Positions 7,479 through 38,107 of a stretch of 64,000 nt of DNA are shown here, piece by piece (within the stretch, counting starts at the first letter, position 1; each line of letters opens with the position of its first letter). The DNA comes from Actinosynnema sp. ALI-1.44. GTDB taxonomy: Bacteria; Actinomycetota; Actinomycetes; Mycobacteriales; Pseudonocardiaceae. Below the pieces are notes generated by a model. That model searched no databases, was not told where the DNA came from, and was given only the letters and a program-made list of their open reading frames with translations. The translations under genes and the position numbers were made by a program. Where the stretch lies: positions 1 to 64,000 of the forward strand of contig NZ_MTQO01000029.1 of assembly GCF_001984155.1 (NCBI RefSeq), written 5' to 3'.

Positions 7479-8765
7479 ATGGCCACGGATGTCGTGGTGA
7501 TCGGGTCGGGAGTGATCGGTGCGTCGATCGCACTGGAACTCGCTCGCGGTGGCTGGCGGGTGACGGTGGTCGACAAGGCGGGCGGAGCGGGCCACGGCTC
7601 CACGAGTGCGTCCAGCGCGGTGGTGCGGTTCAACTTCTCCACCGCCGCGGGCGTCGCCACCGCCTGGGAGGCGCACTTCGGCTGGCGGTCGTGGGCGGAG
7701 CACCTCGGCCGCGATGTCGGGCCGTTGGCTCGGTACGTGCGGTGCGGGATGGCGATGCTGGACGTGGACGTCGCTCCCCGGTCGGTGTACCTGCCGTTGT
7801 TCGAGACCGTGGGTGTCCCCTTCGAGGTGTGGTCGAGTGTGGACCTGTCCGAGCGGATCCCCGGTATCGACGTCGGCAGGTACTGGCCACCGAAACGCCT
7901 CGACGACGAGGAGTTCTGGGTCGAGGCCGAGACCAAGCTGGGTGCCGTGTACACACCTGACGCGGGGTACGTGAACGATCCGCAACTGGCGGCGCAGAAC
8001 CTGGCCGCCGCCGCGCGGGCACACGGCGCCGAGTTCCGGTTCCACGCGTCGGTGCATGGCGTCGAGCGGGCCAATGGCCGGGTCACCGCGGTGACACTCG
8101 CTGATGGGAGCAGGATCCCCTGCGCCGTAGTGGTCAACGCGGCGGGCCCGTGGTCGACGCGCATCAACGAGCTGGCCTCGGTCGGATCCGACTTCGCCGT
8201 GGGATGCAGGCCGCTACGGCAGGAGGTCGCACACGTCGCGGCTCCCGCCAGTGCCCGCGTCTGGCCCTGCGTCGCGGACATGGACCTGGGAACGTACCTG
8301 CGCGGTGAGGTCGGCGGGGGACTGCTGGTCGGTGGTACGGAACCGAAATGCGACCCGATGCAGTGGGTGGACGACCCGGATGCCGTCGCCCAGCACCCGA
8401 CGATGGCGGTGTTCGAAGCCCAGGTGACGAGAGCTGCGCGGCGGCTACCGGCGTTGGAGATACCCAATCGGGCTCGCGGGGTCGTGGGAGTCTACGACGT
8501 CGCCGACGACTGGACGCCGATCTACGACCGCACGGAGCTGGGCGGGTTCTACGTCGCCATGGGGACGAGCGGCAACCAGTTCAAGAACGCGCCCGTCGTC
8601 GGCAAGTTCCTCGCCGCGATCATCGACCAGACGGAGAACGGAGTGGACCACGACGTACGTCCGGTGCGATTCGTCGGCGAGCACACCGGCCTGGAGATAG
8701 ACCTTTCGGCGTTCTCCCGCAAACGCCCCCACGGCGCGCAGAACTCGGGCACAGTGCTGGGGTGA
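7479..8765 (+). CDS. FAD-dependent oxidoreductase (DAO family)
   Basis: This 428-residue protein of the D-amino-acid-oxidase / glycine-oxidase fold has an N-terminal dinucleotide-binding motif, VVVIGSGVIGASIALELARG, at residues 5-24. VVDKAGGAGHGSTSASSAVV follows soon after. The C-terminal FAD contact GFYVAMGTSGNQFKNAP is near residue 360. The ATG at 7479 has GAGGGAGAGG just upstream. It lies 77 bases after the esterase on the same strand and may belong to that operon or have its own promoter. The family oxidises amines such as sarcosine or D-amino acids; the substrate cannot be chosen. It ends 16 bases from a convergent gene. Confidence 0.88.
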   Translation: MATDVVVIGSGVIGASIALELARGGWRVTVVDKAGGAGHGSTSASSAVVRFNFSTAAGVATAWEAHFGWRSWAEHLGRDVGPLARYVRCGMAMLDVDVAPRSVYLPLFETVGVPFEVWSSVDLSERIPGIDVGRYWPPKRLDDEEFWVEAETKLGAVYTPDAGYVNDPQLAAQNLAAAARAHGAEFRFHASVHGVERANGRVTAVTLADGSRIPCAVVVNAAGPWSTRINELASVGSDFAVGCRPLRQEVAHVAAPASARVWPCVADMDLGTYLRGEVGGGLLVGGTEPKCDPMQWVDDPDAVAQHPTMAVFEAQVTRAARRLPALEIPNRARGVVGVYDVADDWTPIYDRTELGGFYVAMGTSGNQFKNAPVVGKFLAAIIDQTENGVDHDVRPVRFVGEHTGLEIDLSAFSRKRPHGAQNSGTVLG

Positions 8766-14538: not shown

Positions 14539-15741
14539 ATGACAGCCACGTCGGCATCTGATGTGGGCTTCCGCTTCCGGTGCGTGGCAGGCGGATACGC
14601 GTTGTCCGCGGCTGGAAACTACCTCAACCTGGTCGCACTCAGTCTGTACACCTACGAGGTCACCGGCGGCGGCCTTGGCGTCGGACTGGTGATGGCGTTA
14701 CGGCTGGCAGCGGGAAGTCTGGGCGGGCTGGTCGCCGGTCGTCTGGTCGGTCGATTCGACCGCCGCAGGTTGATGATCGGCGCGGACCTCGTGCAGGCGG
14801 CTGCCATGACTGTGCTCGTGCTGTCCGCGCGGCACGTTGTCGTGCTCGCGGGAGTCGTTGTGTTGCTCGGCGCGGGAAACAGCTTGTTCACGGTGGCGTT
14901 GCGGACTTCTGTTCCGGAGATGGTCGGGCAGAGCGCCAGGGTGAAGGCGAATGGGTTGTTGGTCATCGCCAAGTCGTTCGCGACGGTGACGGGCTTTGGC
15001 GGCGCGGGTGTCGTAATCGGCTTCGGCGGTGTCGAAGCCGCGTTCGCGATGAACGCGGCCACGTTCCTGGTTTCCGCCCTCGCGATCACGATCGTTCGCC
15101 TGCGTACCGAGGATTCGGCGCCACAGCGCACTTCGGCCCGGGTGACCCTGGGCGCGTTGCCGTTCCTGCTGTTGGCGATGGTGGTCGTGCGCGGCATCGA
15201 CGCGCTGGCGTCGTCGTCGCACAACGTCGCGCTGTCTGTGTTGGCAGGCACGACGCAGGACGGCGCCGCGTTCCTGAGCCGGTTCTGGGTGGCGTGGGCT
15301 GTGGGGATCCTGCTGGCGCACCACGTCGTCAAGAGATATTGGAAACCGGCTTCGGGTGAGCGGATGTTCGCACTCGGCACCGGTGTGATGTCGATTTCCT
15401 TCGCGCTGGCGTTCACCTCACCGCCAACGCCGGTGTGGCTGTGCCTGGTCGCCATGGCCGGGTTCGCCGACGGTGTCACCGAGATCGCGTACACCTCGCG
15501 CCTGCAAGAGGAACCGGAGCGCAGGCGCGGTGGTTTGTTCGGGCTGTCCTCGGCCGCCGAGACAGCCGGTTTCGCTGTCGGCATGGTGGCCGCAGGTGCC
15601 TCGCTCGAGATCCTGCCCGCTGTCGTGGTCGTTGCGATGTTCCACGGCGTCGCACTGACCGCCGCAGCAGTTCTGCTGTTGCTGAAACACTGGGGGACAA
15701 GACATGACATGGCTATCGGGACCCGATCTGATCCTGACTGA
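14539..15741 (+). CDS. MFS transporter, second exporter of the synthetase locus
   Basis: This is a 400-residue MFS protein related in style to the gene at 12887. It opens with FRCVAGGYALSAAGNYLNLV, and the loop GRLVGRFDRRRLMIGADLVQ is the motif-A region. VVVLLGAGNSLFTVALRTSV follows. The ATG has only a weak ribosome site. The 3' end overlaps the synthetase gene by 38 bases, so the two are tightly linked and probably co-transcribed. A TTA codon lies at 14698. The likely role is export of the synthetase product. C-terminal helices end in a short charged tail. Confidence 0.84.
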   Translation: MTATSASDVGFRFRCVAGGYALSAAGNYLNLVALSLYTYEVTGGGLGVGLVMALRLAAGSLGGLVAGRLVGRFDRRRLMIGADLVQAAAMTVLVLSARHVVVLAGVVVLLGAGNSLFTVALRTSVPEMVGQSARVKANGLLVIAKSFATVTGFGGAGVVIGFGGVEAAFAMNAATFLVSALAITIVRLRTEDSAPQRTSARVTLGALPFLLLAMVVVRGIDALASSSHNVALSVLAGTTQDGAAFLSRFWVAWAVGILLAHHVVKRYWKPASGERMFALGTGVMSISFALAFTSPPTPVWLCLVAMAGFADGVTEIAYTSRLQEEPERRRGGLFGLSSAAETAGFAVGMVAAGASLEILPAVVVVAMFHGVALTAAAVLLLLKHWGTRHDMAIGTRSDPD

Positions 15742-18700
15742 GGACGACCCGCGCGACGTCGTCGGCGCCCTGCGGCGGGCCGCTGAATCGCACCCGGATG
15801 CCGGGGTGATGGTGGTCGCGGACGGTGTGCGTCGTCTGATCACCTACCCGCAACTGCTGGCACAGGCGTGTCGGATCCTGACGGGGCTGCGCGCACACGG
15901 TGTGCGGCAAGGGGATCATGTCGTGCTCTCCGGCCTCGCGCTCGCGGACTTCTTCCCTGCGCTCTGGGCGTGCGTACTCGGCGGCATCACGCCTGCCGCG
16001 GTCGCTGATCCCGCGGATGAGGGTGGACCGGCCATGGAGCGCCTGCGGCACACATGGCGCCTGCTCGGTGAGCCGTTGGTGATCGCGAACGCTGTACCTG
16101 CGTCGTTCGCGTCGAGCGCTGTGGTCACGGTGGCCTCCTGTCTGCGATACGAGCCCGCGGTCGAGTTCGCCGATGTCGATGACGACGACGTCGTGGTCCT
16201 GATGCTGTCGTCGGGGAGCACCGGCCAGCCGAAGGCCGCGCAGCTCACCCAGCGAGCACTGGTCCGGTTCGCGGCCAGCACCAGGCGCCTTCTCGATGTG
16301 CGGCCCGGTGACGTCAGCCTCAACTGGCTACCGCTCGACCACAGCGGCGCGTTCCTGCTCTCGCACCTGGTGGAGGTGTTCGCGGGCTGCACCAACGTGC
16401 ACGCGCCGACGTCGTACGTGCTGGCTGATCCCACTCGCTGGCTCGACCTGATCGCTGAGCACCGTGCGAACCACAGTTGGGCACCCATGTTCGCCTACCA
16501 GCTCGTGGCGGACGCGGTGACCGACCAGACGTGGGACCTGTCGTGCGTGCGCACGTTGCTGTGTGGCGGCGAACAAATCATGTTGCCGGTGCTCGACCGG
16601 TTCATGGACGCGGTCGGCGTCGGCCCCGGTTGCATCGTGCCTGCGTGGGGCATGGCCGAGACGACGACTGCGATCACGTACGGCCGGCTCGCCGACCCCC
16701 ACGCCGTGCACCGCGTCCGCAAGTCCAGCCTTGGCGGAGAGCTCCTCTACGCCGACGACGACACGCCTGAGCATGACGTGTCCACGTTCGTCGCCGTCGG
16801 TCCACCGGCACACGAAACGCGCCTGCGTGTCGTCGATGACCGCGGCGTTGTCCTACCGGACAGGCACATCGGCAGGTTGCACATCAGCTCGCCGCGCGTC
16901 ACACCCGGCTACCTCAACGACCCTGCTGCGACCGCGGCCGCGTTCAGCGAGCCGGACTGGCTGGACACCGGTGATCTCGCCTTCCTGTCCGACGGACAGC
17001 TCGTGATCACCGGCAGGCACAAGGACGTGATCGTCCTCAAGGGCCACAACCACTTCGCCCACGAGATCGAGCAGGTCGCCGCGACCGCGCCCGGCGTGCG
17101 ACCGGGTGAGGTCGCCGCGTGTGGCGTACCGGACGAGCGGAGCGGCACGGAGCAACTCGCGATCTTCTTCGTCGGCGGTGATGACGACAACCGGACGGCC
17201 CAGGCGATCCGTCGAGTTCTGCACCAGCGGCTGAGGCTGACCGCGGCGCACGTCGTCGCGGTGGCGGAGCTACCGAGGACGCCGTCGGGCAAGGTGCAGC
17301 GCGCGAAGTTGCGGGACCGCCTGGTGGTCGACACCCTGGGCGTGGTAGCCGAGAGCGTCGCCGCGGTGCTGGGCATGCCAGTGGCCAGGAACAAGCCGTT
17401 CTACGAGGCTGGGTTGGACTCGGTACTGCTGGTGCGGTTGCGTGATCGGTTGGAGCGTGAGCTGGGCAGGGAGATCGCGCAGACTGCCCTCTTCGAACAC
17501 CCCACTGTCGAGGCGCTGACGGCCTACCTCGACGCGGTCGCCGTCGCCGCCGCACCCCGACCTGCGGAACCACCGCAGGACACCAGGATCGCGGTCATCG
17601 GAATGGCACTGCGTTTTCCCGGGGCGCGCTCGGTGGACGAGTTCTGGGCCAACCTCCGGGCCGGTGTCGACAGCGTCAGCGTGTTCGGCACCGACGATCC
17701 GGACCGCGTGCCGGTGATGGGTGTGCTCGAGGACGTGGACGCTTTCGACGCCGAGTTCTTCGGGATGAACGGGCGCGAAGCGGCGGTCACCGATCCGGCG
17801 CAGCGGCTGTTCCTCGAGGTGTGCTACCACGCGCTGGAGGACGCCGGTCACGCGGGCACGTCCGAGGTCGCCGGGGTGTTCGCCGGATCCGGCTCGAACC
17901 TGTACGGCCAGCAGGCGCGAGCGGCCGTGACCGGTGACTCGGCCGCCGCCATGCAGGCGGTCATCGGGCAGGCACCGGACTTCCTGGCGACCAGGGTCGC
18001 CTACCGGCTCGGCCTGACCGGACCCGCGATCGGCGTCCAGACGGCGTGCTCGACCTCGCTGGTCGCCGTGCACCTCGCGGTTCAGTCGCTGCTGGCCGGT
18101 GAGGTGGACATGGCACTGGCCGGAGCGGCCGCGGTGCACCTGCCGCAACAGTCCGGTTACCGCCGAGGCGCACCGCTCTCGCCCACGGGCCGCTGTCGTC
18201 CGTTCGACGCCGAGGCAGACGGCACGGTCGGCGGCAACGGCGTCGCCGCTGTCGTGCTCAAACGACTGGACCGGGCCATCGCCGACGGCGACACCGTGCA
18301 CGCTGTGCTCCTCGGCTCGGCGGTGAACAACGACGGTGCGAGCAAGGCGGGATTCTCCGCGCCGGGGGTGGCCGGTCAAGTCGACGTGATCCGACGAGCG
18401 TTGACCCGCTCGGGTGTCCGGGCGGACTCGATCTCGTACGTCGAGGCGCACGGGACCGGTACCGAACTGGGTGACCCGATCGAGTTCGAGGCTTTGACCC
18501 GCGCGTTCCGAGCGGACACCGAGCGGTCCGGCTTCTGCGCACTGGGGTCGGTGAAGGCGAACGTCGGGCACCTGGACAGTTGCGCCGGGATGGCCGGGCT
18601 GATCAAGACCGTGTTGATGCTGCGGCACGGTGAACTGGTCGCGACGCTCAACCTGAGCAGACCCAACCCCGGACTGCGCCTGGACGACAGCCCGTTCGTC

Positions 18701-21700
18701 CTGGCGACTCGCCTGAACGACTGGACGACCGAAGGACCACGCCGCGCCGGAGTCAGCGCACTGGGCGTCGGGGGCACCAACGCACACGTGATACTCGAAG
18801 AGCCGCCGCGGCGTCGCACCTCGCCACCGTCTCCTGTGCCGACGATCGCTCCGCTGTCGGCACGGGATCCGGAGGCGCTCGCCGACCTCGTGGACCAGTT
18901 CCGGTCTGTCCGCGCCGCGCCTGCGGACATCGCTGCCACGCTCGCGTTGGGTCGTGCACACTTCGCCTGCCGGGCTGTGGCGATCGGTGGCGGCGGGTTC
19001 GTGGTGCGGGAGGCGTCGAAACCGTTGACGCGGACGCTGTTCGCGTTCTCCGGCCAGGGGAGTGCCCGATACGGCATGGCACGTGAACTGTACGATGTGT
19101 TCCCCGTCGTGCGTGACGTGCTCGACGAATGCGATCATGTCTACGGCGGCGGGCTGCTCGACCTGCTGCTGAACGACCGTGCCGAGGCAGTGTGGCCGAC
19201 GTTGACCGCTCAGCCTGCGCTGTTCGCGTTCGAGGTCGCGCTGGCGCGCCTGTGGGAGAGCTTCGGCATCACACCGGATGCGGTGACGGGGCACAGTCTC
19301 GGCGAGTACGCGGCTTTGTGCGTCGGTGGTGCGATCACGATGGCCGACGGGATGCGCCTGACCGGTGAGCGCGCGCGGCTGATGGCGGACAGTGAACCGG
19401 GCGGCATGGTCGCGGTGCACGCTGATATCGCTGTGGCACAGAAAATCGCTGATGCGACAGGGACCGTGCTCGCTGCGGTCAACGGATCCGAGGCGCACGT
19501 GTTGGCCGGTACGCCAGACGCGGTGCGCCGGGTCCTGGACCGTGCGGATGTGCGTACCACCCGGCTCGCACTCGACAGGGCTTTTCATACGGCGCTGATG
19601 GATGACGCGCTCGCGCAGTTCCGGGACTACGCGAAGACCGTCCCGTTGAACCCGTTGCGGGTGCGGTTCGTGAGCAGCCTGGACGGTCGGGAGCGTCCTG
19701 TCGGGTGGTTGCCTGATCCGGACTACCTGGTGCGCCAGGCGCGTCAGCCGGTGCGGTTCGACCTCGTGATGTCTGCTGTGGACGGATCCGACGTGATCGA
19801 GGTCGGGCCTGGGGAAGTCCTCACTGGACTGGGCGACGGTTGGCTGCCGAGCCAACGCGCCGGGGTCGACCGGGTCACCGCTCTCTGGCTCACTCTGGGG
19901 GAGCTCTACGTTCGTGGTGCTGACATCAACTGGGCGGCTGTGATCCGTGGTGGTTCCAGGATCTCGTTGCCTGTTTACCCCTTCAAACGCACCCGTTTCC
20001 CGGTGGAGGAAGCCGAACAGACGCCTGACGTCGTCCCGTCGCAGGGGCGGCTGCGCTCCGTGCGCGCTGTTGTGGCCCGTGTGCTGGGCGCGGAGGAGAG
20101 CGCGGTGACAGCCGACAAGTCGTTCTTCGACTTCGGCGCGGACTCGTTGACGTTGATGAGCCTGGCACGAGCGGTCGACGCGGAGTTCGGGGCAAAGGTG
20201 CCCGTGCGTACGCTTTTCGCGGACGCTGACACTCCCCGCAAGCTCGCATCGCTGATCGGTACCGAGCCGGAGATCGTCGATGTCCCCGACGAGCCGGAAA
20301 CGGTGAGCCGACCGGCGTCGGTCGTACAGGAGACGGTGGACCGCCAGTTGCGCCTCGGTGAACGCCTGGTCGACCTGATGGAACGGCAACTGGCGATGTT
20401 GACGACCAGTTCCGTCGAGCTGCCTCCGCAGAACACCGCCACCGTCGCTGTGCGGGAGCGCGATCCCGAGCCGGTGGTGCTTTCCGCGCCGCCCGAACCA
20501 GTTGTGCCCGACGAGCGGGCGACCCAGAGCGGTGGCGTGTCCTGTGACTTCAGTCTTTACTTCTTCGGGGACTACCCGGAACAGCAGGAGACGAACAAGT
20601 ACGAGTTGATCAACGCGGCCACCGAGTTCGCGGACCGGCACGGTTTCCATTCGGTCTGGCTGCCGGAGCGGCATTTCCATTCGTTCGGCGCGTTGTTCCC
20701 CAACCCGTCGGTGCTCGCTGCCGCACTCGCCGCCCGCACCAGAAGGATCAAGTTGCAGGCCGGCTCCGTCGTGCTGCCGCTGCACAATCCCATCCGGGTG
20801 GCGGAGGAGTGGTCGGTCGTGGACAATTTGTCCGGCGGCCGTGTCGGGCTGTGCTTCGCCAGTGGCTGGCACGCCGGGGACTTCGCGTTGGCGCCCCAGA
20901 ACTTCGGCAAGCACCGCGAGCTCATGTACGAACAGTTGGACACAGTGCGGCGGCTGTGGTCAGGCGAGGCGATCGAGGCCACTTCCGGCAGCGGCGAGCC
21001 CATCGACGTGCGGCTGTACCCCCGTCCGATCCAGCAACGGCCACCGATGTTCGTCGCGGTGGTGAGCAACCCGGACAGCTACCGGCGGGCTGCTGAAGAG
21101 GACCTCGGGGTCGTTACGAACCTGATGGTGCAGACCGTGGACCAACTCGCGGAGAACATCGCCCTGTACCGGCGCACCCGCCGTGAACACGGCCTCGACC
21201 CGGCCGCGGGCCGAGTCGTCGTGCTCGTGCACACCCACGTCGGCCCCGATGCCATAACCGAGGCCTACCAGCCGTTCTGTGCCTACCTGCGGTCTTCGCT
21301 GTCCCTGTTCGACCAGGTCACGAACAGCCTCGGGTTCGACATCGACCTGGCGAACACGCCTGAGGAGGACGTCGATTTCCTGCTCGACCAGGCTTACCGC
21401 CGATACTGCGAGTCGCGCGCGCTGATCGGTGCCGAGCAGGATGTCGCGGCTGTCGCCGACCGGCTGATCGCCGCCGGTGTGAACGAGATCGCGTGCTTCG
21501 TGGACTTCGGTGTGCCGACTCGGAACGTCATCGAGGCATTGCCTGCCGTCGACCGTCTGCGCGAGCGGTATTCGACGCCGCGGTTGCCGTTGTCGCCGGG
21601 GCAGCGACGAGTCTGGCTGATGGAACAGCTGCATCCGGACACCAGCGCGTATCACGAGCCCAAAGCCATCAGGTTCACCGGCCGGCTGGACGAGCGGAAA

Positions 21701-24700
21701 CTGATTGCCGCGCTGCAAGCTGCCGTGCACCGGCAACCTGAGCTGCGGACTGTCTTTCGCGAGCAGGACGGTGAACCGCATCGAGTCGTGCTGCCTGCCG
21801 TCGAGTTCGACTGCCCGGTGCTCGACTACACCGGCACCGACGAGACCACGGCCTTGCGCTCGGTGCTCAGCACGGTCGGCCGGGAGATCTTCGACCTGGC
21901 GGAAGGTCCGCTGGTGCTGGCCAGGCTGCTGCGGCTGGACGACGAGCACCACCTGCTCTTCCTGCTGGCGCACCACATCGTGTTCGACTCGTCGTCGACG
22001 GCGGTGCTCGTCCGGGACATGGCCGCCCACTACAGTGGCGGCACGTTGCCCACTGTGGACATAAGGGTGACGCCCGAACACAGCCGATCGGCCAAGGAGG
22101 CCGATCTCGAGTTCTGGCAACGAGAGCTGGCGGACGCCCCGGTGCTGCGGTTGCCGACGGACCGGCCCCGTCCGGTGGCACGGCACGCCGAAGGCGCGAG
22201 CTTCACGCACGAGTTCAAGTTCACGCGTGAACTGGCACGATTCTGCGCGAGCCACCGAGTCACACCGTTCATGGCCATGCTCGGTGCGGTCGCCGCGGCG
22301 CTCGGGCGGTTCAGTGGCCAGGACGACGTCGTGATAGGCACCGCAGTGACGAACCGGCCACCGGATGCCCAAGGTGAGGTCGGTCTGTTCCTCGACACGG
22401 TCGCGTTGCGGATGGACTTGTCCGGCGATCCGGCGTTCGCCGACCTGGTGAGCCAGGTGCGGGACCGCACCATTGCTGCCTACGAGCACCGCCACGTCGC
22501 GTTCGACGAGCTCGTCCGGGCGCTGAACCCGACGCGAGACGCGAGCCGCAACCCGTTGTTCCAGGTGATGGTGGAGTTCGAGAACGCCGAGGAAGTCGAG
22601 TTCGCGGCGCCGTTGACCGTTGATCTGCTCGACGTACCGAGTGATCGAGCGCCTTTCGACATCACGTTCTACCTCACGCAGCACCGTGCCGGGCTACGTT
22701 GCTCGGTCGAGTACGACACAAGGCTGTTCGACGAGGTCACAGTGCGTCGCGTCCTCGATCTCGTCGAGGCAGTGCTCCGCCGCGCGATGGCCCGTCCCGA
22801 TGCGGTGTTGTCCGAGCTGGTGACGCTCACCGAGCACGATCGGGCCGCGCTGAACTCGTGGCAAGGCGCGCCGGTCGCGGTGCCGTCCGAAGGTCTGCAC
22901 CATCTCGTCGAACGCCAGGCCGCCGATACGCCGGACGCCGTCGCATTGCTCGGGCAGGACATCGAGGTGTCCTACCGGGACCTGGACAAACACGCCAACC
23001 GGGTGGCCAGACGGTTGCACGAACGCGGGATCGGCCCGGGGGACTTCGTCGCGGTGCTCCTGCCGCGTGGTGCCGAGCAGATCACCGCGATGCTAGGCGT
23101 TCTCAAGGCCGGTGCGGCCTACCTGCCAATCGATGTGGATACGCCCAAAGCGCGGCGCGAGTACATGATGGCGGATTGCGCGGTCGCGCTCCTGCTCACG
23201 ACCGAGGTCCTCAGTGAGTGGGGGAGCGCGGACGACCTGGACTCCGCGCCACCCGCAGTGACCACAACGCCGGACAGCCCGGCGTACTGCATCTACACAT
23301 CGGGGTCGACTGGGCGGCCCAAAGGCGTGGTGGTGCCCCACCGCGGGCCGGTGAACCTGGTTCGTTGGCAGTTGCGGCACCACCGGGCGCTGCGCACGCT
23401 GCAGTGGACTTCGACGGCGTTCGACGTGAGCGTGCAGGAGATCTTCACGACGCTCGCCGCTGGCGCGACGCTCGTGCTGATCACCGAGGACATGCGGCAC
23501 GACGTGCCTGCCGTGGTGGCGAAGTACGACGTCCAGCGATTGTTCCTGCCTTTCACGCCGTTGAAGTATCTCGTGGAGTCGCTGCCGTCCCTGCCGTCGT
23601 TGCGTGAGATATTCTCGGCGGGGGAGGCTTTGTCCGTCACACCAGCGTTACGCCGGTTCCTGGCCGAGCACCCTTCCTGCGCGTTGTACAACCAGTACGG
23701 TCCGACCGAAACGACGATCATCGTCACCTCGCAGCTGGTCGACCACGAGAGCGAATCCCGCCCACCGATCGGTGCGCCGATCGACGGCGTCGAACTGCTG
23801 TTGCTCGATTCCGGTGGTCGTGAGGTTCCCGTTGGCGCGGTGGGGGAGATCCACATCGCCGGAATCGCAGTAGCCCAGGGCTATGTGCGGTCGCCGTTCA
23901 ACGGTGTGTACCGCACGGGTGATCTTGGCCGTTGGCGGGCGGACGGTACGGTCGAGTTCGTCGGCCGGATCGACGACCAGGTGAAGATCCGCGGTCACCG
24001 GGTCGAACCCGGCGAGGTGCAGGCCGTGCTGCAGGAGCTGGACGGCGTCGTCGACGCCGCTGTGGTGGCTCGGCCTGACGTGCACGGAGAGCCGGAACTC
24101 GTCGCGTATGTGGTCTCCGGTCGCGGGGACCTCGCTGACGAGCTCGCCGAGTGGTTGCCGGGCCACGCCATACCGCGACGGTGGGTGCAGCTCGATCGCC
24201 TGCCTTACAACACAAGCGGAAAGCTGGATCGCGACCGGCTCCCGGCGCCGACATACGGGAGGGCGAGGAACGACGACACGCCTGCGGACGACCTGGAGCG
24301 GTCACTGCACGCGGCGTGGTGCGCGGAGTTGGGCAGGGAGTCGGTGCCAGTCAACGCGTCGTTCTTCGAACTGGGCGGCCACTCGTTGACGGCGATCAGA
24401 CTGGTGAACCGGATAGCTGCCGAACACCGGCTGAAGCTGTCCATCACGGACTTCTTCCACGCGCCGACGATCCGCGCTGTGGCAGCACGACGGCAGACGG
24501 AGTTGCCGATGACGTCGTTCCTGCGCAGGCTCTGGCAAAGACACCACGAACGCGTCGACCCGGCTGTGTACAACATCGCGCATCGCGTCGACGTGGAAGG
24601 GCCGCTGGACCTGACCGCGCTGACCCAGGCGTTCACCGAACTGGTGCGCAGGCATGACGCCTTGCGGATGAGATTGTCCGACGACACGATCCAGGTCCTG

Positions 24701-25717
24701 GCGCAGGTTCCCGTTGAGCTCCCGGTCACCGACCTGGACCCGGATGACGTTGAGCGGTGGTGCCGGGAGCAGGTGGGCGAGGTGTTCGTACTGACCGAGG
24801 CACCTCTGTTCCGGTTCCGCCTGGCACGAATCAGCGATGCTCGGTGGGTACTCGTTGTCGTGTGGCACCATTCGGTGTGCGACGCGTGGTCGCTCGACAT
24901 CTTGTGGCGTGAGATCGGCGAGCTGTACCGAGGGACTCAGCTACGACCGCCTCGAGCACAGTTCGCGGAGTACGTTCGCTGCGAACGAAGCAACCTCGCT
25001 CCACCCCGGAGAGCGGAGTTGGAAGCTTTCTGGCGCAAGGAGTTGGACGGCGCCAGGTTGCGCTTGGCCTTGCCCGTCGACCATCCGCGCCCTGGCAGGT
25101 TGTCCGGCCGCGGCGCTCGTCACGAGTTCGTGGCCGGTGCTCCGGTCGCTCAAGGGGTCCGCAGACGGGCTGCCGAGTTCGGAAGCACTCCCTACATGGT
25201 GCTGGCCGGGGCCTTCGCGGCGTGGATATCGGATCTCTGCGGCCAGCCGGACATCGTGCTGGCCGCGTCGAGCGCGAATCGCCTGCAGGGCGACCACGAC
25301 GAAATCGTCGGTCCGCTCGGTGACGCGGTACTGCTGAGAGTACGCCCGGACGGCGGTTTTCCAGACGTGGTGGCTCGGATGGCCGAAACGGTGTACACGG
25401 CGCTCGACCACCAGGCTCTGCCCTTGACCGAGGTCGCGCGGCTGGTCGCCCCGTCCGAGGCGGATGGCCTCTTCCCGACTGTCCTGTTCACCGTGGTGAC
25501 AACGCCCGCGCCGACGTTCGGCCTGCCCGGCGCTACGCTGCGCGAACTGTCCCATCCTGGTATGGCTCGCAACGAGTTGTACGCGGTGATCATCCCGTCC
25601 GACGACACCATCCGCGTGGTGTTCGAGTACTCGACCGATCTTTTCGAGGAGTCGACAATCCTCGCCTGGGGGGAGAGCTTCCTGGCTGTGTTGGCCGAAC
25701 GCTGCACGCCACAGTGA
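15704..25717 (+). CDS. Hybrid NRPS-PKS: AL-ACP-KS-AT-ACP-MSL-C-A-PCP-C
   Basis: This 3,337-residue assembly-line protein begins with an acyl-AMP ligase (about 10-535; SSGSTGQPKAAQLT near 165) and ACP1 (545-612, Ser574). The KS spans 626-1035 (Cys782, His916, His956) and the AT 1110-1395 (Ser1198 in GHSLGEY, His1295 in RAFH). ACP2 is at 1448-1520 (Ser1481). A luciferase-like FMN monooxygenase (1612-1955) of the MupA/Atu3671 type follows. The C domain spans 1961-2390 (HHIVFDS at 2090-2096) and the A domain 2398-2850. The PCP is at 2862-2935 (Ser2894) and a second C domain at 2937-3337 (HHSVCDA at 3055-3061). There is no thioesterase. Predicted chemistry: activate an acyl starter, extend it once with a malonyl-type unit, hydroxylate it and couple one amino acid. 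The last C domain then needs a partner. GGGGGA precedes the ATG; a TTA codon is at 23648. Confidence 0.93.
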   Translation: MTWLSGPDLILTEDDPRDVVGALRRAAESHPDAGVMVVADGVRRLITYPQLLAQACRILTGLRAHGVRQGDHVVLSGLALADFFPALWACVLGGITPAAVADPADEGGPAMERLRHTWRLLGEPLVIANAVPASFASSAVVTVASCLRYEPAVEFADVDDDDVVVLMLSSGSTGQPKAAQLTQRALVRFAASTRRLLDVRPGDVSLNWLPLDHSGAFLLSHLVEVFAGCTNVHAPTSYVLADPTRWLDLIAEHRANHSWAPMFAYQLVADAVTDQTWDLSCVRTLLCGGEQIMLPVLDRFMDAVGVGPGCIVPAWGMAETTTAITYGRLADPHAVHRVRKSSLGGELLYADDDTPEHDVSTFVAVGPPAHETRLRVVDDRGVVLPDRHIGRLHISSPRVTPGYLNDPAATAAAFSEPDWLDTGDLAFLSDGQLVITGRHKDVIVLKGHNHFAHEIEQVAATAPGVRPGEVAACGVPDERSGTEQLAIFFVGGDDDNRTAQAIRRVLHQRLRLTAAHVVAVAELPRTPSGKVQRAKLRDRLVVDTLGVVAESVAAVLGMPVARNKPFYEAGLDSVLLVRLRDRLERELGREIAQTALFEHPTVEALTAYLDAVAVAAAPRPAEPPQDTRIAVIGMALRFPGARSVDEFWANLRAGVDSVSVFGTDDPDRVPVMGVLEDVDAFDAEFFGMNGREAAVTDPAQRLFLEVCYHALEDAGHAGTSEVAGVFAGSGSNLYGQQARAAVTGDSAAAMQAVIGQAPDFLATRVAYRLGLTGPAIGVQTACSTSLVAVHLAVQSLLAGEVDMALAGAAAVHLPQQSGYRRGAPLSPTGRCRPFDAEADGTVGGNGVAAVVLKRLDRAIADGDTVHAVLLGSAVNNDGASKAGFSAPGVAGQVDVIRRALTRSGVRADSISYVEAHGTGTELGDPIEFEALTRAFRADTERSGFCALGSVKANVGHLDSCAGMAGLIKTVLMLRHGELVATLNLSRPNPGLRLDDSPFVLATRLNDWTTEGPRRAGVSALGVGGTNAHVILEEPPRRRTSPPSPVPTIAPLSARDPEALADLVDQFRSVRAAPADIAATLALGRAHFACRAVAIGGGGFVVREASKPLTRTLFAFSGQGSARYGMARELYDVFPVVRDVLDECDHVYGGGLLDLLLNDRAEAVWPTLTAQPALFAFEVALARLWESFGITPDAVTGHSLGEYAALCVGGAITMADGMRLTGERARLMADSEPGGMVAVHADIAVAQKIADATGTVLAAVNGSEAHVLAGTPDAVRRVLDRADVRTTRLALDRAFHTALMDDALAQFRDYAKTVPLNPLRVRFVSSLDGRERPVGWLPDPDYLVRQARQPVRFDLVMSAVDGSDVIEVGPGEVLTGLGDGWLPSQRAGVDRVTALWLTLGELYVRGADINWAAVIRGGSRISLPVYPFKRTRFPVEEAEQTPDVVPSQGRLRSVRAVVARVLGAEESAVTADKSFFDFGADSLTLMSLARAVDAEFGAKVPVRTLFADADTPRKLASLIGTEPEIVDVPDEPETVSRPASVVQETVDRQLRLGERLVDLMERQLAMLTTSSVELPPQNTATVAVRERDPEPVVLSAPPEPVVPDERATQSGGVSCDFSLYFFGDYPEQQETNKYELINAATEFADRHGFHSVWLPERHFHSFGALFPNPSVLAAALAARTRRIKLQAGSVVLPLHNPIRVAEEWSVVDNLSGGRVGLCFASGWHAGDFALAPQNFGKHRELMYEQLDTVRRLWSGEAIEATSGSGEPIDVRLYPRPIQQRPPMFVAVVSNPDSYRRAAEEDLGVVTNLMVQTVDQLAENIALYRRTRREHGLDPAAGRVVVLVHTHVGPDAITEAYQPFCAYLRSSLSLFDQVTNSLGFDIDLANTPEEDVDFLLDQAYRRYCESRALIGAEQDVAAVADRLIAAGVNEIACFVDFGVPTRNVIEALPAVDRLRERYSTPRLPLSPGQRRVWLMEQLHPDTSAYHEPKAIRFTGRLDERKLIAALQAAVHRQPELRTVFREQDGEPHRVVLPAVEFDCPVLDYTGTDETTALRSVLSTVGREIFDLAEGPLVLARLLRLDDEHHLLFLLAHHIVFDSSSTAVLVRDMAAHYSGGTLPTVDIRVTPEHSRSAKEADLEFWQRELADAPVLRLPTDRPRPVARHAEGASFTHEFKFTRELARFCASHRVTPFMAMLGAVAAALGRFSGQDDVVIGTAVTNRPPDAQGEVGLFLDTVALRMDLSGDPAFADLVSQVRDRTIAAYEHRHVAFDELVRALNPTRDASRNPLFQVMVEFENAEEVEFAAPLTVDLLDVPSDRAPFDITFYLTQHRAGLRCSVEYDTRLFDEVTVRRVLDLVEAVLRRAMARPDAVLSELVTLTEHDRAALNSWQGAPVAVPSEGLHHLVERQAADTPDAVALLGQDIEVSYRDLDKHANRVARRLHERGIGPGDFVAVLLPRGAEQITAMLGVLKAGAAYLPIDVDTPKARREYMMADCAVALLLTTEVLSEWGSADDLDSAPPAVTTTPDSPAYCIYTSGSTGRPKGVVVPHRGPVNLVRWQLRHHRALRTLQWTSTAFDVSVQEIFTTLAAGATLVLITEDMRHDVPAVVAKYDVQRLFLPFTPLKYLVESLPSLPSLREIFSAGEALSVTPALRRFLAEHPSCALYNQYGPTETTIIVTSQLVDHESESRPPIGAPIDGVELLLLDSGGREVPVGAVGEIHIAGIAVAQGYVRSPFNGVYRTGDLGRWRADGTVEFVGRIDDQVKIRGHRVEPGEVQAVLQELDGVVDAAVVARPDVHGEPELVAYVVSGRGDLADELAEWLPGHAIPRRWVQLDRLPYNTSGKLDRDRLPAPTYGRARNDDTPADDLERSLHAAWCAELGRESVPVNASFFELGGHSLTAIRLVNRIAAEHRLKLSITDFFHAPTIRAVAARRQTELPMTSFLRRLWQRHHERVDPAVYNIAHRVDVEGPLDLTALTQAFTELVRRHDALRMRLSDDTIQVLAQVPVELPVTDLDPDDVERWCREQVGEVFVLTEAPLFRFRLARISDARWVLVVVWHHSVCDAWSLDILWREIGELYRGTQLRPPRAQFAEYVRCERSNLAPPRRAELEAFWRKELDGARLRLALPVDHPRPGRLSGRGARHEFVAGAPVAQGVRRRAAEFGSTPYMVLAGAFAAWISDLCGQPDIVLAASSANRLQGDHDEIVGPLGDAVLLRVRPDGGFPDVVARMAETVYTALDHQALPLTEVARLVAPSEADGLFPTVLFTVVTTPAPTFGLPGATLRELSHPGMARNELYAVIIPSDDTIRVVFEYSTDLFEESTILAWGESFLAVLAERCTPQ

Positions 25718-25783
25718 CCGCTGCGACACAACTGGGACACGACAGGGACGGGCCGCGGACGCGTGGCTCCTAACTTCGCGGCT

Positions 25784-27172
25784 GTGAAAACCACCTACCG
25801 CATGATCGCGATCGTCGTGGTCGGCGCCACGGCCGCACTGGGCGCCGCTGCGGGCGCCGATGCCCGTCCCGCCGTAACGGATGCTTACGACGCGCTGCAC
25901 TACGACGTGAGCCTCGAGTACCGCTCCGGCTCGAAGGACATGGCGGGCACCACCACACTCAAGGCCAGGGCCACCGGTGCGTTGCCGAGGTTCGCGCTGG
26001 ACTTCGGCGGCGGCCGGGTCAGCCAGGTCACGGTGAACGGGCGACCCGCCAGGTTCCAGGCCAGCGGCGAGCGCTTGCTGGTCACCCCCAAGCCGCTGGC
26101 CCGCGGCGCGGAGTTCTCGGTCACCGTCGACTATGTGGTCACCAGGTCCAATGGACCGGACAACCGCGGTCCATGGCGGGAGATCGATGACGGCTTCGCC
26201 ATCTCCCCGCAGAACCACCAGACCATGCACCACGTGTACCCGTGCAAGAACGACATCGCGGACAAGGCCACGTACACCATCAGCGTCACCGCTCCCGCCC
26301 ACCTGACCGGGGTGGCGAACGGCGATCTGACGCAGACCCGGCAGCTGCCTGGCGGCCGGACCGCGCGCACCTATCGCATGGTTCACCCGATGCCCGCGCA
26401 CGACGGGCAGATCGCGGTCGGCCCCTATTCGCTGATCACCCGCCCTGGCCCGGACGGGGTCACCATTCGTGATGTCGTGCCGACCGCCCAGGCCGACCAG
26501 CTCGAGAAAACGCTGGCCAGGACTGACGACCAGCTGCGGTGGCAGACCGCGAGGCTGGGTGCCTACCCCTTCGGCACCTACGGGATCTTCGCCCCGCTGG
26601 GCACCATCAGCCCTTTCGAGAGCCAGACGATGACCACCATCGCGGCATCGACACTGGCCAGTGACCCGGCGGACTACTTGCGAACCCATGAGCTCAACCA
26701 CCAGTGGTTCGGTGCATCCGTCACCCCCGTGAACCTCGACGACGACTGGACCGCCGAGGGACACGCCCACTTCTACGGCACCTGGTACGACTCCGAGCTG
26801 AGCCAGCCCGGTTCCCCTGATGCCTTCGCCGCGGGCATGCGGTTCAACTACGAGATGGACCAGGAGAACCGTGACCGTGAGGGAGCCCCGGCGCGGCCCA
26901 AGCCGGTGTCCGGCCAAACCCAACGCGTCGGTGGGGCGCTCGCGCTGTACGCGCTGCGCCAAACCGTTGGCGCGCAGACCTTCGAGCGGATCGAACGCAC
27001 GGTGGTGTCGCGGTTCAAGGACGGTGTGATGAGCACGGCCGACTACATCACCGTCGCGAACCAGGTGTCCGGGCGTGATGTCAGCGGCCTGCTCAAGGAC
27101 TGGCTGTACGGCACCAAGACCCCGCCGATGCCCGGACACCCCGACTGGAAGCCCGGCACCCCCGCCTCCTGA
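25784..27172 (+). CDS. Secreted M1-family-like metallopeptidase (first of a pair)
   Basis: This is an exported zinc aminopeptidase-like protein. A short basic start and the hydrophobic stretch IAIVVVGATAALGAAAGADA form a signal peptide. An N-terminal beta domain precedes the catalytic motif HELNHQWFG near residue 302. It is followed 18 residues later by DDWTAEGHAHFY, giving the third zinc ligand as in M1 enzymes. It is shorter (about 460 residues) than classic M1 enzymes and lacks their last domain. No good ribosome site marks the start: GTG 25784 gives the most signal-like start, GTG 25763 and ATG 25802 are alternatives. It lies 66 bases after the synthetase and just before a paralogue, so a product-maturation or resistance role is possible but unproven. 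Confidence 0.82.
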   Translation: MKTTYRMIAIVVVGATAALGAAAGADARPAVTDAYDALHYDVSLEYRSGSKDMAGTTTLKARATGALPRFALDFGGGRVSQVTVNGRPARFQASGERLLVTPKPLARGAEFSVTVDYVVTRSNGPDNRGPWREIDDGFAISPQNHQTMHHVYPCKNDIADKATYTISVTAPAHLTGVANGDLTQTRQLPGGRTARTYRMVHPMPAHDGQIAVGPYSLITRPGPDGVTIRDVVPTAQADQLEKTLARTDDQLRWQTARLGAYPFGTYGIFAPLGTISPFESQTMTTIAASTLASDPADYLRTHELNHQWFGASVTPVNLDDDWTAEGHAHFYGTWYDSELSQPGSPDAFAAGMRFNYEMDQENRDREGAPARPKPVSGQTQRVGGALALYALRQTVGAQTFERIERTVVSRFKDGVMSTADYITVANQVSGRDVSGLLKDWLYGTKTPPMPGHPDWKPGTPAS

Positions 27173-27199
27173 ACCCCGCACTGGCCCAAGGAGATCTCT

Positions 27200-28600
27200 G
27201 TGTTGCCCATCAGGAAACGACACCTGCTGACGCTGGGAGCACTGCTCACCAGCCTGACCCTGACCGCCCCTGTCGCCTTCGCCGGAGTCGGGGGAGACGG
27301 GATCGGTGATCCGTACTGGCCGCAGGACGGCAACGGCGGCTACCGCGTCGGCCACTACGACGTGAAAGTGGGCTACGACCCGGACAAGCCGGACGAGCTC
27401 ACCGGGGACACCACGGTGTCAGCCACCGCCACCGCCGGGTTGGACCAGTTCAACCTGGACTTCACCCCGACCTTCGACATCTCCACGATCACCGTCAACG
27501 GAGTACCGGCCCGGGGTTTCACACGGGAAGGGGAACACGAGCTGGTGGTCACCCCGGCCCGGCCGATCCGCCGGGGTGCCCGGTTCGACGTGCGGGTGGT
27601 GTATTCGGGCAAGAACGGCGACACCCGGTACAACCCCGAAACCGGCGGCATGTTCATGGCAGGCGAGCCGCATTCGGCCACCAGCTGGTTCCCGTCCAAC
27701 GACCACCCGTCGGACAAGGCCACCTTCGCGCTGACCGCGACCGTGCCGCAGGGGTGGACAGCGGTCGGCAACGGCAGGCCAGGCCCCACCACCACTGAGC
27801 GGGGCCGAACCACCTTCCGCTGGCGCGAGGACAGCCCGCTGTCCACGTGGACCGCGGTGCTGGCGATCGCCAAGTTCACCGTCGTCAACGCCGCGCTGGC
27901 CGACGGAACCCCGGTGATCAGCGCCTATGCCCCGGGGGCGGAGGCCGCGGCCCGCCAGCACGGCGACCGCGTCCCGGAGATCATCGACTTCCTCTCGGCC
28001 AAGTTCGGGAGGTACCCGTTCTCCTCGGCAGGCGGGATCTACTTCAACGAGGACATCGCGATGGGACTGGAAACCCACAGCAGGCCGCTGTATCCGGGCA
28101 CGGCGTGGAACGACGTGGTCGGCCTCATCGTGCACGAGCAGGCGCACCAGTGGTTCGGCAACAACGTGACCGGCCGGAACTGGCGCGACATCTGCGTTGC
28201 CGAGTGCTTCGCCACCTACGCCCAGTGGTTGTGGAGTGAAGCGAAAGAAGGCAAGGACCTGGACGCCCACTACCGCGAGCTCGTCGCCGTCAACCGGGAC
28301 AAGCCGGACTTCTGGAAGGTGCCGCTCTACGACCCCGGCGCCGAGAAGTACCTCGCAGCGGTGTACCGGACCGGGCCGCTGATGGTGCACGCACTGCGCC
28401 GGAGCATCGGCGATGACACGTTCTTCCGGCTACTGACCCGCTGGCAGGAGCTGCACCGGGGTGGCAACGCCTCGTGGCCGGAGTTCGAACAGCTGGCGCA
28501 GCGGGAGTCCGGAGTGGACCTCGGCGGGTTCTTCCACGCGTGGACACGGAGCACCACGATCCCGGCTGAGCGATATCTCCACCTCGGTCCGGTCCGCTGA
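27200..28600 (+). CDS. Secreted M1-family metallopeptidase (second of a pair)
   Basis: This 466-residue exported zinc peptidase has the signal peptide RKRHLLTLGALLTSLTLTAP ending near AFAG. A beta domain follows, and FNEDIAMGLETHSRPLY stands where M1 enzymes have their substrate-binding GxMEN motif. The zinc site is VHEQAHQWFGNNV near residue 312, with the third ligand in VAECFATYAQW. The GTG at 27200 has AAGGAG 6 bases upstream. It starts 27 bases after its paralogue; both keep the zinc ligands and probably share a transcript. Substrates are peptides with a free N-terminus by family rule. It converges on the MFS gene 8 bases away. Confidence 0.88.
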   Translation: MLPIRKRHLLTLGALLTSLTLTAPVAFAGVGGDGIGDPYWPQDGNGGYRVGHYDVKVGYDPDKPDELTGDTTVSATATAGLDQFNLDFTPTFDISTITVNGVPARGFTREGEHELVVTPARPIRRGARFDVRVVYSGKNGDTRYNPETGGMFMAGEPHSATSWFPSNDHPSDKATFALTATVPQGWTAVGNGRPGPTTTERGRTTFRWREDSPLSTWTAVLAIAKFTVVNAALADGTPVISAYAPGAEAAARQHGDRVPEIIDFLSAKFGRYPFSSAGGIYFNEDIAMGLETHSRPLYPGTAWNDVVGLIVHEQAHQWFGNNVTGRNWRDICVAECFATYAQWLWSEAKEGKDLDAHYRELVAVNRDKPDFWKVPLYDPGAEKYLAAVYRTGPLMVHALRRSIGDDTFFRLLTRWQELHRGGNASWPEFEQLAQRESGVDLGGFFHAWTRSTTIPAERYLHLGPVR

Positions 28601-36186: not shown

Positions 36187-37275
36187 GTGCCCAGCACAGA
36201 GACCCCCGGCCCGGAGATGAACCCGTTGCGGCTGCGGGAGGTCACGACCCCCAACCGCGTGTGGATGTCCCCGATGGCCCAGTACGCGGCAGGGCCCGAC
36301 GGCATGCCGACCGACTGGCACATGGTGCACTACGGCCCTCGCGCGCTCGGCGGCGTTGGCCTGCTCATGGTCGAGTCCACCGCGGTCGGACCGCTGCACC
36401 GGACCACGGCGGCGGATCTCGGGATATGGACGGAGGACCAGGCCCTCGCGCACCGGCGCCTGACCTCGTTCGTCGCCGACTACGGCGCGGTGCCCGCGAT
36501 CCAGCTGATCGCCGCGGGCCGGAAGGGATCGCACCAGGTCCCCTGGGAGGGTGAAGGGCAGAACGGTCCGGTGAGCGCGGCCGACGGCGGCTGGGACCTG
36601 ATCGCGCCGTCCGCGATCCCGTTCGGCGACCTGGCCACGCCTCGCGAAGCGACCCCCGACGACCTCGACGAGGTCGTCGAGGCCTTCGCCCAGGCGACTC
36701 GGATGTCCCATCTGGCCGGTTACCACGCGGTCGAGATCCACGCCTCGCACGGGTACCTGCTGCACCAGTTCTTGTCCCCGCTCGCCAACCACCGGACCGA
36801 CGAGTACGGCGGGAGCCCGCAGAACCGGATGCGCCTGCCGTTGCGTGTCGCCCGCGCCGTCCGGCAGGCCTTCCCGGAGGACAAGCCCGTCTTCGTCCGC
36901 ATCACCGCGACCGACTGGATCGACGGCGGCATCACCATCGAGGACGCCGTGCAGTTCGCCAAGGAACTCGCCGCCGCGGGCATCGACCTCCTCGACGTCA
37001 CCTCCGGCGTCCTGGTGCGTGACGAGGAGGCCCGCCCGCCGACGAGGGAAGGGGTGAACGTCGGGTTCGCGGCCACCCTCAAGGAGGCGTCGGGACTCGC
37101 GGTCGCCCCGGTCGGGCAGATCGGCAGCCTGGCGACGGCGGGCCGGATCGTCGGCGCCCAGGAGGCGGACGCCGTGCTGTTGGGCCGCGCACTGCTGCGT
37201 GACCCGTACCTCGCGCTGCGCCACCGTCCCACCGACAAGGACGCATGGCCTGTCCGGTACCACCGCGCGCTCTGA
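36187..37275 (+). CDS. NADH:flavin oxidoreductase, old yellow enzyme family (YqjM-like)
   Basis: This 362-residue FMN-dependent ene-reductase reduces activated C=C bonds. RVWMSPMAQYAAGPDGMPTD is the N-terminal FMN region, WHMVHYGPRALGGVGLLMVE follows, and YHAVEIHASHGYLLHQFLSP with LANHRTDEYGGSPQNRMRLP is the family signature carrying the substrate-binding histidine pair. ADAVLLGRALLRDPYLALR is the C-terminal phosphate site. I chose GTG 36187 (GAAGTGAG upstream); the frame runs to 36148. The alpha/beta hydrolase follows 31 bases later in the same operon. The operator site A palindrome is 63 bases upstream. It likely acts in catabolism of an unsaturated compound. Confidence 0.88.
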   Translation: MPSTETPGPEMNPLRLREVTTPNRVWMSPMAQYAAGPDGMPTDWHMVHYGPRALGGVGLLMVESTAVGPLHRTTAADLGIWTEDQALAHRRLTSFVADYGAVPAIQLIAAGRKGSHQVPWEGEGQNGPVSAADGGWDLIAPSAIPFGDLATPREATPDDLDEVVEAFAQATRMSHLAGYHAVEIHASHGYLLHQFLSPLANHRTDEYGGSPQNRMRLPLRVARAVRQAFPEDKPVFVRITATDWIDGGITIEDAVQFAKELAAAGIDLLDVTSGVLVRDEEARPPTREGVNVGFAATLKEASGLAVAPVGQIGSLATAGRIVGAQEADAVLLGRALLRDPYLALRHRPTDKDAWPVRYHRAL

Positions 37276-37306
37276 GACCGAATCCACTACCCCGAAAGGA
37301 ACCGCC

Positions 37307-38107
37307 ATGACGGTGGTCATCGACAACACCAAGCACGACGAGGTCCGGCGTCCCGACGGCACCACGATCCGGTACACGGCCAGCGGTCCCGCCGACGGGC
37401 CCACCATCGCGCTCATCCACGGTTGGGGGTGCGACCGCCACGACTTCGACGCGATCACCGGTTTCCTCCCGCGGCACCTCCGCGTGCTGGCGGTCGACCT
37501 CGCCGAACACGGGGACTCCCGGTCCACCCGCGAGGTCTGGACGATGGAGGAGTTCGCCCGTGACGTGGCGGCCGTGCTGGAAGCCGAGTCGGTCGGCTCG
37601 TGCGTCGTCGTCGGACATTCGCTGGGCGGGGCGGTCGCGCTCGAAACCGCCCGGCTGCTGCCCGATGTGGTCACTCGCGTGGTCGAGCTCGAAGCCTTGC
37701 ACTACCTGTCGCTGTTCCCCGCGCAGGACAAGGACCAGGCCGAAGCTCTGCTGCGCCCGTTCCGCGAGGACTTCGCCGGTGCGATGCGCGGCATGGTGGA
37801 GGCGGGCTCACTGCCCAGCACCGACCCGGCCCTGGTGGACAAGTACACCACCAAGATGGGCGCGGTGCGCCAGCCCGCGGGGCTGCACGCCCTCGAAGCC
37901 CTGTTGCACTGGGACATGGACGCCACGCTGGACGCGATCACGCAGCCGATCACGCTGTTCGCCGTGCGCGAGATCATCACCCAGGAAGCCATCGACCGCT
38001 ATGGCGACCGGATCCGCATCGAGCTGGTCGACCTGGGCAGCCACCACTTCCACGCCGAGTCGCCCGAGGCCACGGCCGGGCTGCTGGCCGATGTGATGTC
38101 CGAATAG
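37307..38107 (+). CDS. Alpha/beta fold hydrolase
   Basis: This 266-residue hydrolase has the nucleophile elbow VVVGHSLGGAVALETA (serine near residue 103), oxyanion strand IALIHGWGCDRHDFD, and C-terminal histidine region LGSHHFHAESPE. The ATG at 37307 has GAAAGGA 6 bases upstream; the longer frame to 37199 overlaps the OYE gene and is a shadow. It is the second gene of the OYE operon. It probably hydrolyses an ester, lactone or C-C bond after reduction by the OYE enzyme. The specific reaction is not evident. A bidirectional hairpin terminator follows the stop. Confidence 0.86.
   Translation: MTVVIDNTKHDEVRRPDGTTIRYTASGPADGPTIALIHGWGCDRHDFDAITGFLPRHLRVLAVDLAEHGDSRSTREVWTMEEFARDVAAVLEAESVGSCVVVGHSLGGAVALETARLLPDVVTRVVELEALHYLSLFPAQDKDQAEALLRPFREDFAGAMRGMVEAGSLPSTDPALVDKYTTKMGAVRQPAGLHALEALLHWDMDATLDAITQPITLFAVREIITQEAIDRYGDRIRIELVDLGSHHFHAESPEATAGLLADVMSE

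Follow-up and report, generated by a model that had tools for sequence, protein, structure and literature searches.

Two overlapping genes on the forward strand of the 64,000-nucleotide stretch of DNA analysed here (the window, in which no N bases occur) recur side by side in actinobacteria: one encodes a presumed exporter of the MFS type and the other a PKS-NRPS hybrid synthetase that ends in a lone condensation domain. The domain order of the synthetase is conserved, the exporter gene is paired with it, and in most loci no further module lies nearby downstream; the starter, the chemical steps, the amino acid, the mode of release and the export are predictions. It is an evenly balanced proposition that the two genes form a self-sufficient unit that would load, extend, α-hydroxylate, couple, release and export its product, release onto a free nucleophile being the likeliest outcome.

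The synthetase gene (15704..25717) encodes 3,337 amino acids from an ATG start without internal stop, and a ribosome-binding-like GGGGGA ends 6 nucleotides 5' of this ATG. Pfam and NCBIfam profiles (two AMP-binding stretches, three PP-binding, a ketoacyl synthase, Acyl_transf_1, TIGR04020 and two Condensation matches) and the comparison of relatives define the ten-domain order AL-ACP-KS-AT-ACP-LLM-C-A-PCP-C, confirming the initial annotation of a one-protein NRPS-PKS with an acyl-ligase start, one PKS round, one NRPS round and a lone terminal C domain. The acyl-AMP ligase (AL, residues about 15-541; 15746..17326) is followed by the carrier ACP0 (17345..17539), the KS with a C-terminal extension (17582..18937), the AT with a RAFH motif (19040..19780), ACP1 (20057..20257) and the FMN luciferase-like monooxygenase (LLM; 20549..21562). 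The NRPS part comprises the condensation domain C1 with the motif HHIVFDSSS at residue 2090 (21584..22852), the A domain (22910..24241), the PCP (24266..24478) and the terminal condensation domain CT with HHSVCDAWS at residue 3055 (24491..25714). The catalytic residues of the KS (Cys782), the AT (Ser1198) and the carriers (Ser573, Ser1481 and Ser2894) are intact, as had been claimed, except that the first carrier serine had been placed one position too far, at 574. Families for KR, DH, ER, AMT, TE and docking domains were not found in the synthetase at E <= 1e-3, and the slot of an aminotransferase, about 97 residues between ACP1 and the LLM, has no family match.

The first gene of the pair (14539..15741, 400 amino acids) overlaps the synthetase gene by 38 bases. 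It matches Pfam MFS_1 with an E-value of 3.7e-24, and its best NCBIfam match is TIGR00900 with 115 bits, under the cut-off of 320 for that family. The MFS protein would export the product. Outward of it lie a second MFS gene and an ArsR-like regulator.

With the LLM as query, GTDB contigs yielded 480 relatives, of which the best 80 were fetched; four loci without an ORF of more than 1,500 amino acids (L084, L092, L100 and L103) were left out, and 76 were analysable. The identical ten-domain order in a single ORF was found in 54 of these 76 other loci, a share that describes the best 80 of 480 relatives and is no population frequency. The remaining 22 are cut at contig or locus ends, are split over frames or genes, carry an AMT or KR, or are without CT. 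In the exact-order relatives among the best 80, the KS cysteine and histidine, the AT serine and the three carrier serines are kept in 54 of 54, as are the second histidine and the aspartate of both C domains; the first histidine of the terminal motif is replaced by N in two relatives and by S in one. Because the order recurs in 54 of 76 and the active residues are kept in all 54, the domain order is well beyond chance. A misassembly joining two separate proteins, which had been named as what would refute the initial annotation, is excluded by the same order at 54 other loci.

Of the 54 exact-order relatives in this best-80 set, 52 have the MFS homologue directly upstream and on the strand of the synthetase, L078 and L082 giving no match, with 23-416 nucleotides between the end of the MFS match and the AL domain. 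When the ORFs of the flanks were clustered, no cluster besides MFS and other NRPS-type proteins occurred in more than nine loci. Since only the MFS gene is widely kept in the flanks, the conserved unit consists of exporter and synthetase.

The cassette, which the initial annotation had taken for a possible new class, is widespread. Among 392 sampled Streptomyces genomes, 18 contained the terminal C domain (E <= 1e-90), each time within a frame of 3,464 to 3,984 amino acids; the genus of this sample was identified from S. harbinensis and Streptomyces sp. XM4193, each of which gave a 100% DNA match. At E <= 1e-60 the same domain was detected in 4 of the 394 genomes sampled from the class, own genome included, and the LLM (E <= 1e-120) in 21 of the 390 sampled from the family, a count that includes the own genome and the aminotransferase type; the family, class and Streptomyces samples overlap in part with the named relatives. 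Besides Streptomyces, with S. albidoflavus and S. coeruleorubidus among its harmless carriers, the genera carrying the cassette include Saccharothrix, Kribbella, Amycolatopsis, Micromonospora, Actinoplanes and others. A linear plasmid of Streptomyces aurantiacus (L122, NZ_CP114282.1), the one inspected among 19 records of a plasmid search, holds an MFS gene and a 10.8-kb synthetase gene (WP_331276005.1 and WP_269246219.1) that are cassette-like by the gene pair alone; this apparent cassette adjoins the phosphonate genes aepX and aepY. With only two genes and so broad a spread, the cassette should be exceptionally simple to express in a heterologous host and is a good place to look for a new natural product.

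Some relatives seem to end differently. In two split-gene loci where no terminal C was detected, a protein of about 255 amino acids without Pfam match follows the KS-AT gene (L093:17450-18205 and L087:17243-18028) and may serve as an alternative enzyme for release or tailoring. In an Actinoallomurus relative without terminal C, a fused thioesterase-TylF-methyltransferase gene (L094:2212-4197) adjoins the synthetase and is possibly its release enzyme.

As predicted from the intact domains, an acyl starter would be extended once, hydroxylated and joined to one amino acid, in line with the initial annotation. The AL would adenylate a carboxylic acid and load it onto ACP0. This domain is collinear with the fatty acyl-AMP ligase 3pbk through residues 338-366, presumably the place of the FAAL-specific insertion, yet its nearest solved relatives are 6ulx (289 bits), which we take to be the keto-acid A domain StsA, and McyG (4r0m, 259 bits). 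These are not classical fatty-acyl ligases, a point against the model; the likeliest substrate is a fatty acyl or aryl-alkanoyl group. The RAFH motif of the AT, assumed by us to be of the malonyl type, has F in 51 of the 54 exact-order relatives (from the best 80 of 480) and Y in three. The KS-AT would add one malonyl unit and, because the KS and AT sites are intact and KR, DH, ER and AMT are absent, leave a β-ketoacyl chain on ACP1.

The LLM scores 467 bits against TIGR04020, whose cut-off is 244, and its nearest solved chain is PuwE of puwainaphycin (6ket, E 1.9e-122). Its expected substrate is the β-ketoacyl chain, because no domain of the synthetase alters the β-ketone before the LLM, and by analogy with MupA it would hydroxylate the α carbon while the β-ketone persists. 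MupA, according to the accessible part of its description, hydroxylates the α carbon of a β-keto ACP substrate and not the β-hydroxy form (PMC10952193). A counter-example is the LLM Cpr32, which in the consulted portion of a review hydroxylates after ketoreduction (PMC8037709), and LLMs of the CalD/MndB type are said, in the excerpt available, to proceed to Baeyer-Villiger chain cleavage (PMC8739492). The aminotransferase-free lineage described here suggests that an LLM of the puwainaphycin/microginin type can act on the β-ketone before amination, a question on which the cassette bears.

The α-hydroxy-β-ketoacyl chain would then be coupled by C1-A-PCP to one amino acid, probably proline-like. 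The nine-residue code of the A domain is DVQTFAQII, which departs at T278 and Q322 from a proline reference code like DVQxxAHVV. D[VI]Q codes are found in 47 of the 54 exact-order relatives from the best 80 of 480; the other seven (Kribbella and allies, L054, L078 and L110) have other codes. It is with low to moderate confidence that the code points to proline or another cyclic secondary amino acid.

The terminal C domain, where release would take place, retains its catalytic histidine and aspartate in 54 of 54 exact-order relatives (best 80 of 480). In 50 of these 54, a tblastn search with the domains of the window at E <= 1e-8 found no A, C or carrier match in the available 3' flank, which measures 2-5,869 bases and is shorter than 2 kb in two; with queries taken from the window itself, distant NRPS parts may escape. 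Downstream A or C matches occur in the other four (L038, L056, L057 and L077), at least 2.6 kb away, and count against a stand-alone unit. CT is proposed as the release catalyst; it would free the chain with no module following, the likeliest acceptor being a small nucleophile in solution, for instance an amine, or else by forming a ring via the α-hydroxyl. The cassette also bears on which nucleophile a bacterial terminal C domain uses.

Structural comparison gives a hint in this direction. With the AlphaFold model of CT (pLDDT 94.5) as the Foldseek query, CmnI ranked first and SgcC5 eighth; with the model of C1 as control (pLDDT 91.2), they ranked 45th and 47th. Their E-values were similar for both models, and HtmB2-CT ranked about equally for both. 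CmnI and SgcC5 are, we assume, C enzymes that use free acceptors not bound to a carrier, and the shift in rank hints that the modelled CT may do likewise. Glidonin C13 (in the part of its description at hand), CmnI, SgcC5 and HtmB2-CT resemble CT in that they end the line or use a non-carrier acceptor; to our knowledge, none of them follows an LLM-hydroxylated ketoacyl-aminoacyl chain. Glidonin C13 adds putrescine and sits in a C-A*-T-TE module, not as a lone C, as stated in the available sections of PMC10587159. Two observations speak against a release role of the C domain: by sequence profile CT is nearest to the chain-elongating C domains of Txo (Txo2, 305 bits), and at 37199-38107, 11 kb away, lies a gene for an alpha/beta hydrolase that weakly matches Thioesterase.

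Instead of using a free nucleophile, CT might close a ring within the bound chain, the α-hydroxyl or the α carbon attacking the amino-acyl thioester; attack by the hydroxyl would give a bicyclic pyrrolo-oxazine-dione, provided that the amino acid is proline, and attack by the carbon a pyrrolizidine tetramate. The lack of a conserved acceptor gene in the flanks agrees with such a closure, the LLM would itself make the nucleophile, the own-genome paralogue with an aminotransferase likewise ends in a lone C, and fungal CT domains cyclise, according to the part of a review that was available (PMC11546977). The profile of CT, however, is nearest to elongating C domains, the CT of fungal TqaA scoring only 82 bits against 305 for Txo2, and the literature consulted, in part as excerpts, held no bacterial precedent, which makes ring closure possible but rather unlikely. 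The broader proposal that a single polypeptide constitutes the whole pathway and that CT closes on the new α-hydroxyl or α carbon, so that several actinobacterial families would make bicyclic oxazinediones or tetramates of an undescribed class, is more doubtful still.

It is improbable that the synthetase passes its chain to an A-PCP encoded elsewhere in the genome in the manner of the iturin/mycosubtilin initiation subunit. A terminal C is typical of such a subunit, and L077 and L038 have same-strand A or C matches about 3 to 4 kb downstream; against this stand the 50 of 54 loci without a match in the available flank, the MFS gene as the only one widely kept beside the synthetase, and the scarcity of any tail that could serve as a docking domain. 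The residues beyond the terminal C match number 118 in one locus and at most 51 in the others. A Stackebrandtia relative (L097) encodes its terminal C as a gene of its own, equipped with a TubC_N docking domain and followed by no A or carrier match.

Very improbable is the reduction or amination of the β-ketone by an unlinked enzyme to a microginin- or bestatin-like α-hydroxy-β-amino acyl peptide, with the M1-like genes (25763-28600) as self-protection: sister synthetases hold an aminotransferase in cis and the M1-like genes adjoin the synthetase, but no AMT or KR occurs in the synthetase or the 30 other window ORFs scanned, and the M1 genes have no match (E <= 1e-8) in the flanks of L010-L113.

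The nearest known kind is the cyanobacterial puwainaphycin/microginin type, and the cassette is an orphan family, not a rarity. As in this type (MicD, we take it, holds an LLM), the LLM of the window synthetase is embedded in the PKS part before the first NRPS module. Where the sources could be consulted, PuwE and MicD are, like the window synthetase, hybrid proteins that combine a PKS extension, an α-hydroxylating oxygenase step and a single NRPS module, whereas the FAAL and ACP, fused in the window synthetase, are separate genes in those systems (PMC4219810, PMC12250027); the review consulted for MicD names no monooxygenase. In the same sections, the puwainaphycin and microginin assembly lines also include an aminotransferase and continue with more NRPS modules; the window synthetase has neither and ends in the lone C. 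MupA of mupirocin is of the same TIGR04020 family as the window LLM, but it works in trans in a trans-AT PKS, whereas the window LLM is fused in cis.

MycA and ItuA, whose domain order has an AL-ACP-KS start and a terminal C, resemble the window synthetase in that a single protein combines this start with one NRPS module and the terminal C. They differ in that the window synthetase has no AMT, has an embedded AT and an LLM, and is accompanied by no following synthetase that could be found. The portion of PMC4219810 available lists FAAL, AMT, PKS and an NRPS module for the iturin/mycosubtilin subunit. An iturin-type initiation subunit, the parallel originally drawn, is unlikely, as the window synthetase fails in the AMT and following-NRPS features: neither the 30 other ORFs scanned in the window nor the available 3' flanks of 50 of 54 relatives showed an NRPS. 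No characterised pathway with the domain set of the cassette was found in the open-licence literature searched; the initial annotation, too, had recognised no described actinomycete product with this exact set. Palmerolide (LLM and terminal C), karnamicin (FAAL and terminal C) and ichizinone (stand-alone LLM) were rejected because the domain order differs in what their sources disclosed. Detoxin/rimosamide, pyreudione, bohemamine and salinazinone were further known products that we considered.

The closest actinobacterial comparison is with sister synthetases that bear an aminotransferase, namely L096, L101, L106, L108 and, in the own genome, L114 (contig C40). They share with the window synthetase the arrangement AL...ACP-KS-AT-ACP-...-LLM-C, plus A-PCP-C where the locus holds it, and differ by an inserted AMT, by a KR where tested and by other A codes where readable. 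A class-III aminotransferase precedes the LLM in five of five segments tested, and a KR follows the AL in three of three. It had been said that the FMN monooxygenase stands where the iturin family has its aminotransferase; this is misleading, for the sisters carry both and the window protein is merely without the AMT. We know of no characterised product of these sisters. The exporter family of the cassette was found upstream of L096, L108 and L114, and none was found for L101 and L106. L114 is a second pair of exporter and synthetase in the same genome, the latter of about 4,640 amino acids with KR and AMT and the code DATTMGIVA; its upstream gene is an MFS homologue (41%), only 13 residues follow the lone C at the end of the synthetase, and the gene after it lies on the opposite strand. 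In the LLM tree the window sequence falls in the starred clade of 48 rows (99/94), of which 46 end in a terminal C and two are cut short; with midpoint rooting, seven aminotransferase rows lie on the opposite side from this clade. The tree needs three label changes, and the placement of the long-branched L078, L091, L094, L097, L107, L110 and L113 is unsure.

A scan of the 30 other ORFs of the window showed no further NRPS/PKS, AMT or KR, and scans for terminators and inverted repeats gave nothing. On the 3' side of the synthetase lie two M1-peptidase-like genes, an MFS gene, a P450, an M20 amidohydrolase and a polysaccharide deacetylase. The M1-like genes (25763-27172 and 27200-28600) follow directly in tandem and encode secreted-looking proteins of 469 and 466 amino acids, which share 127 identities over 396 aligned residues and carry one HEXXH motif each. 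Neither was matched (E <= 1e-8) beside the synthetase copies of loci L010-L113 within their flanks. A bestatin/amastatin-like aminopeptidase inhibitor with M1 resistance was ranked last among the candidates, the M1 genes being absent beside the other copies and no aminotransferase having been found. At 7560-7649 ARAGORN calls a tRNA with a four-base anticodon inside the ORF of an FAD oxidoreductase, a call that is probably spurious.
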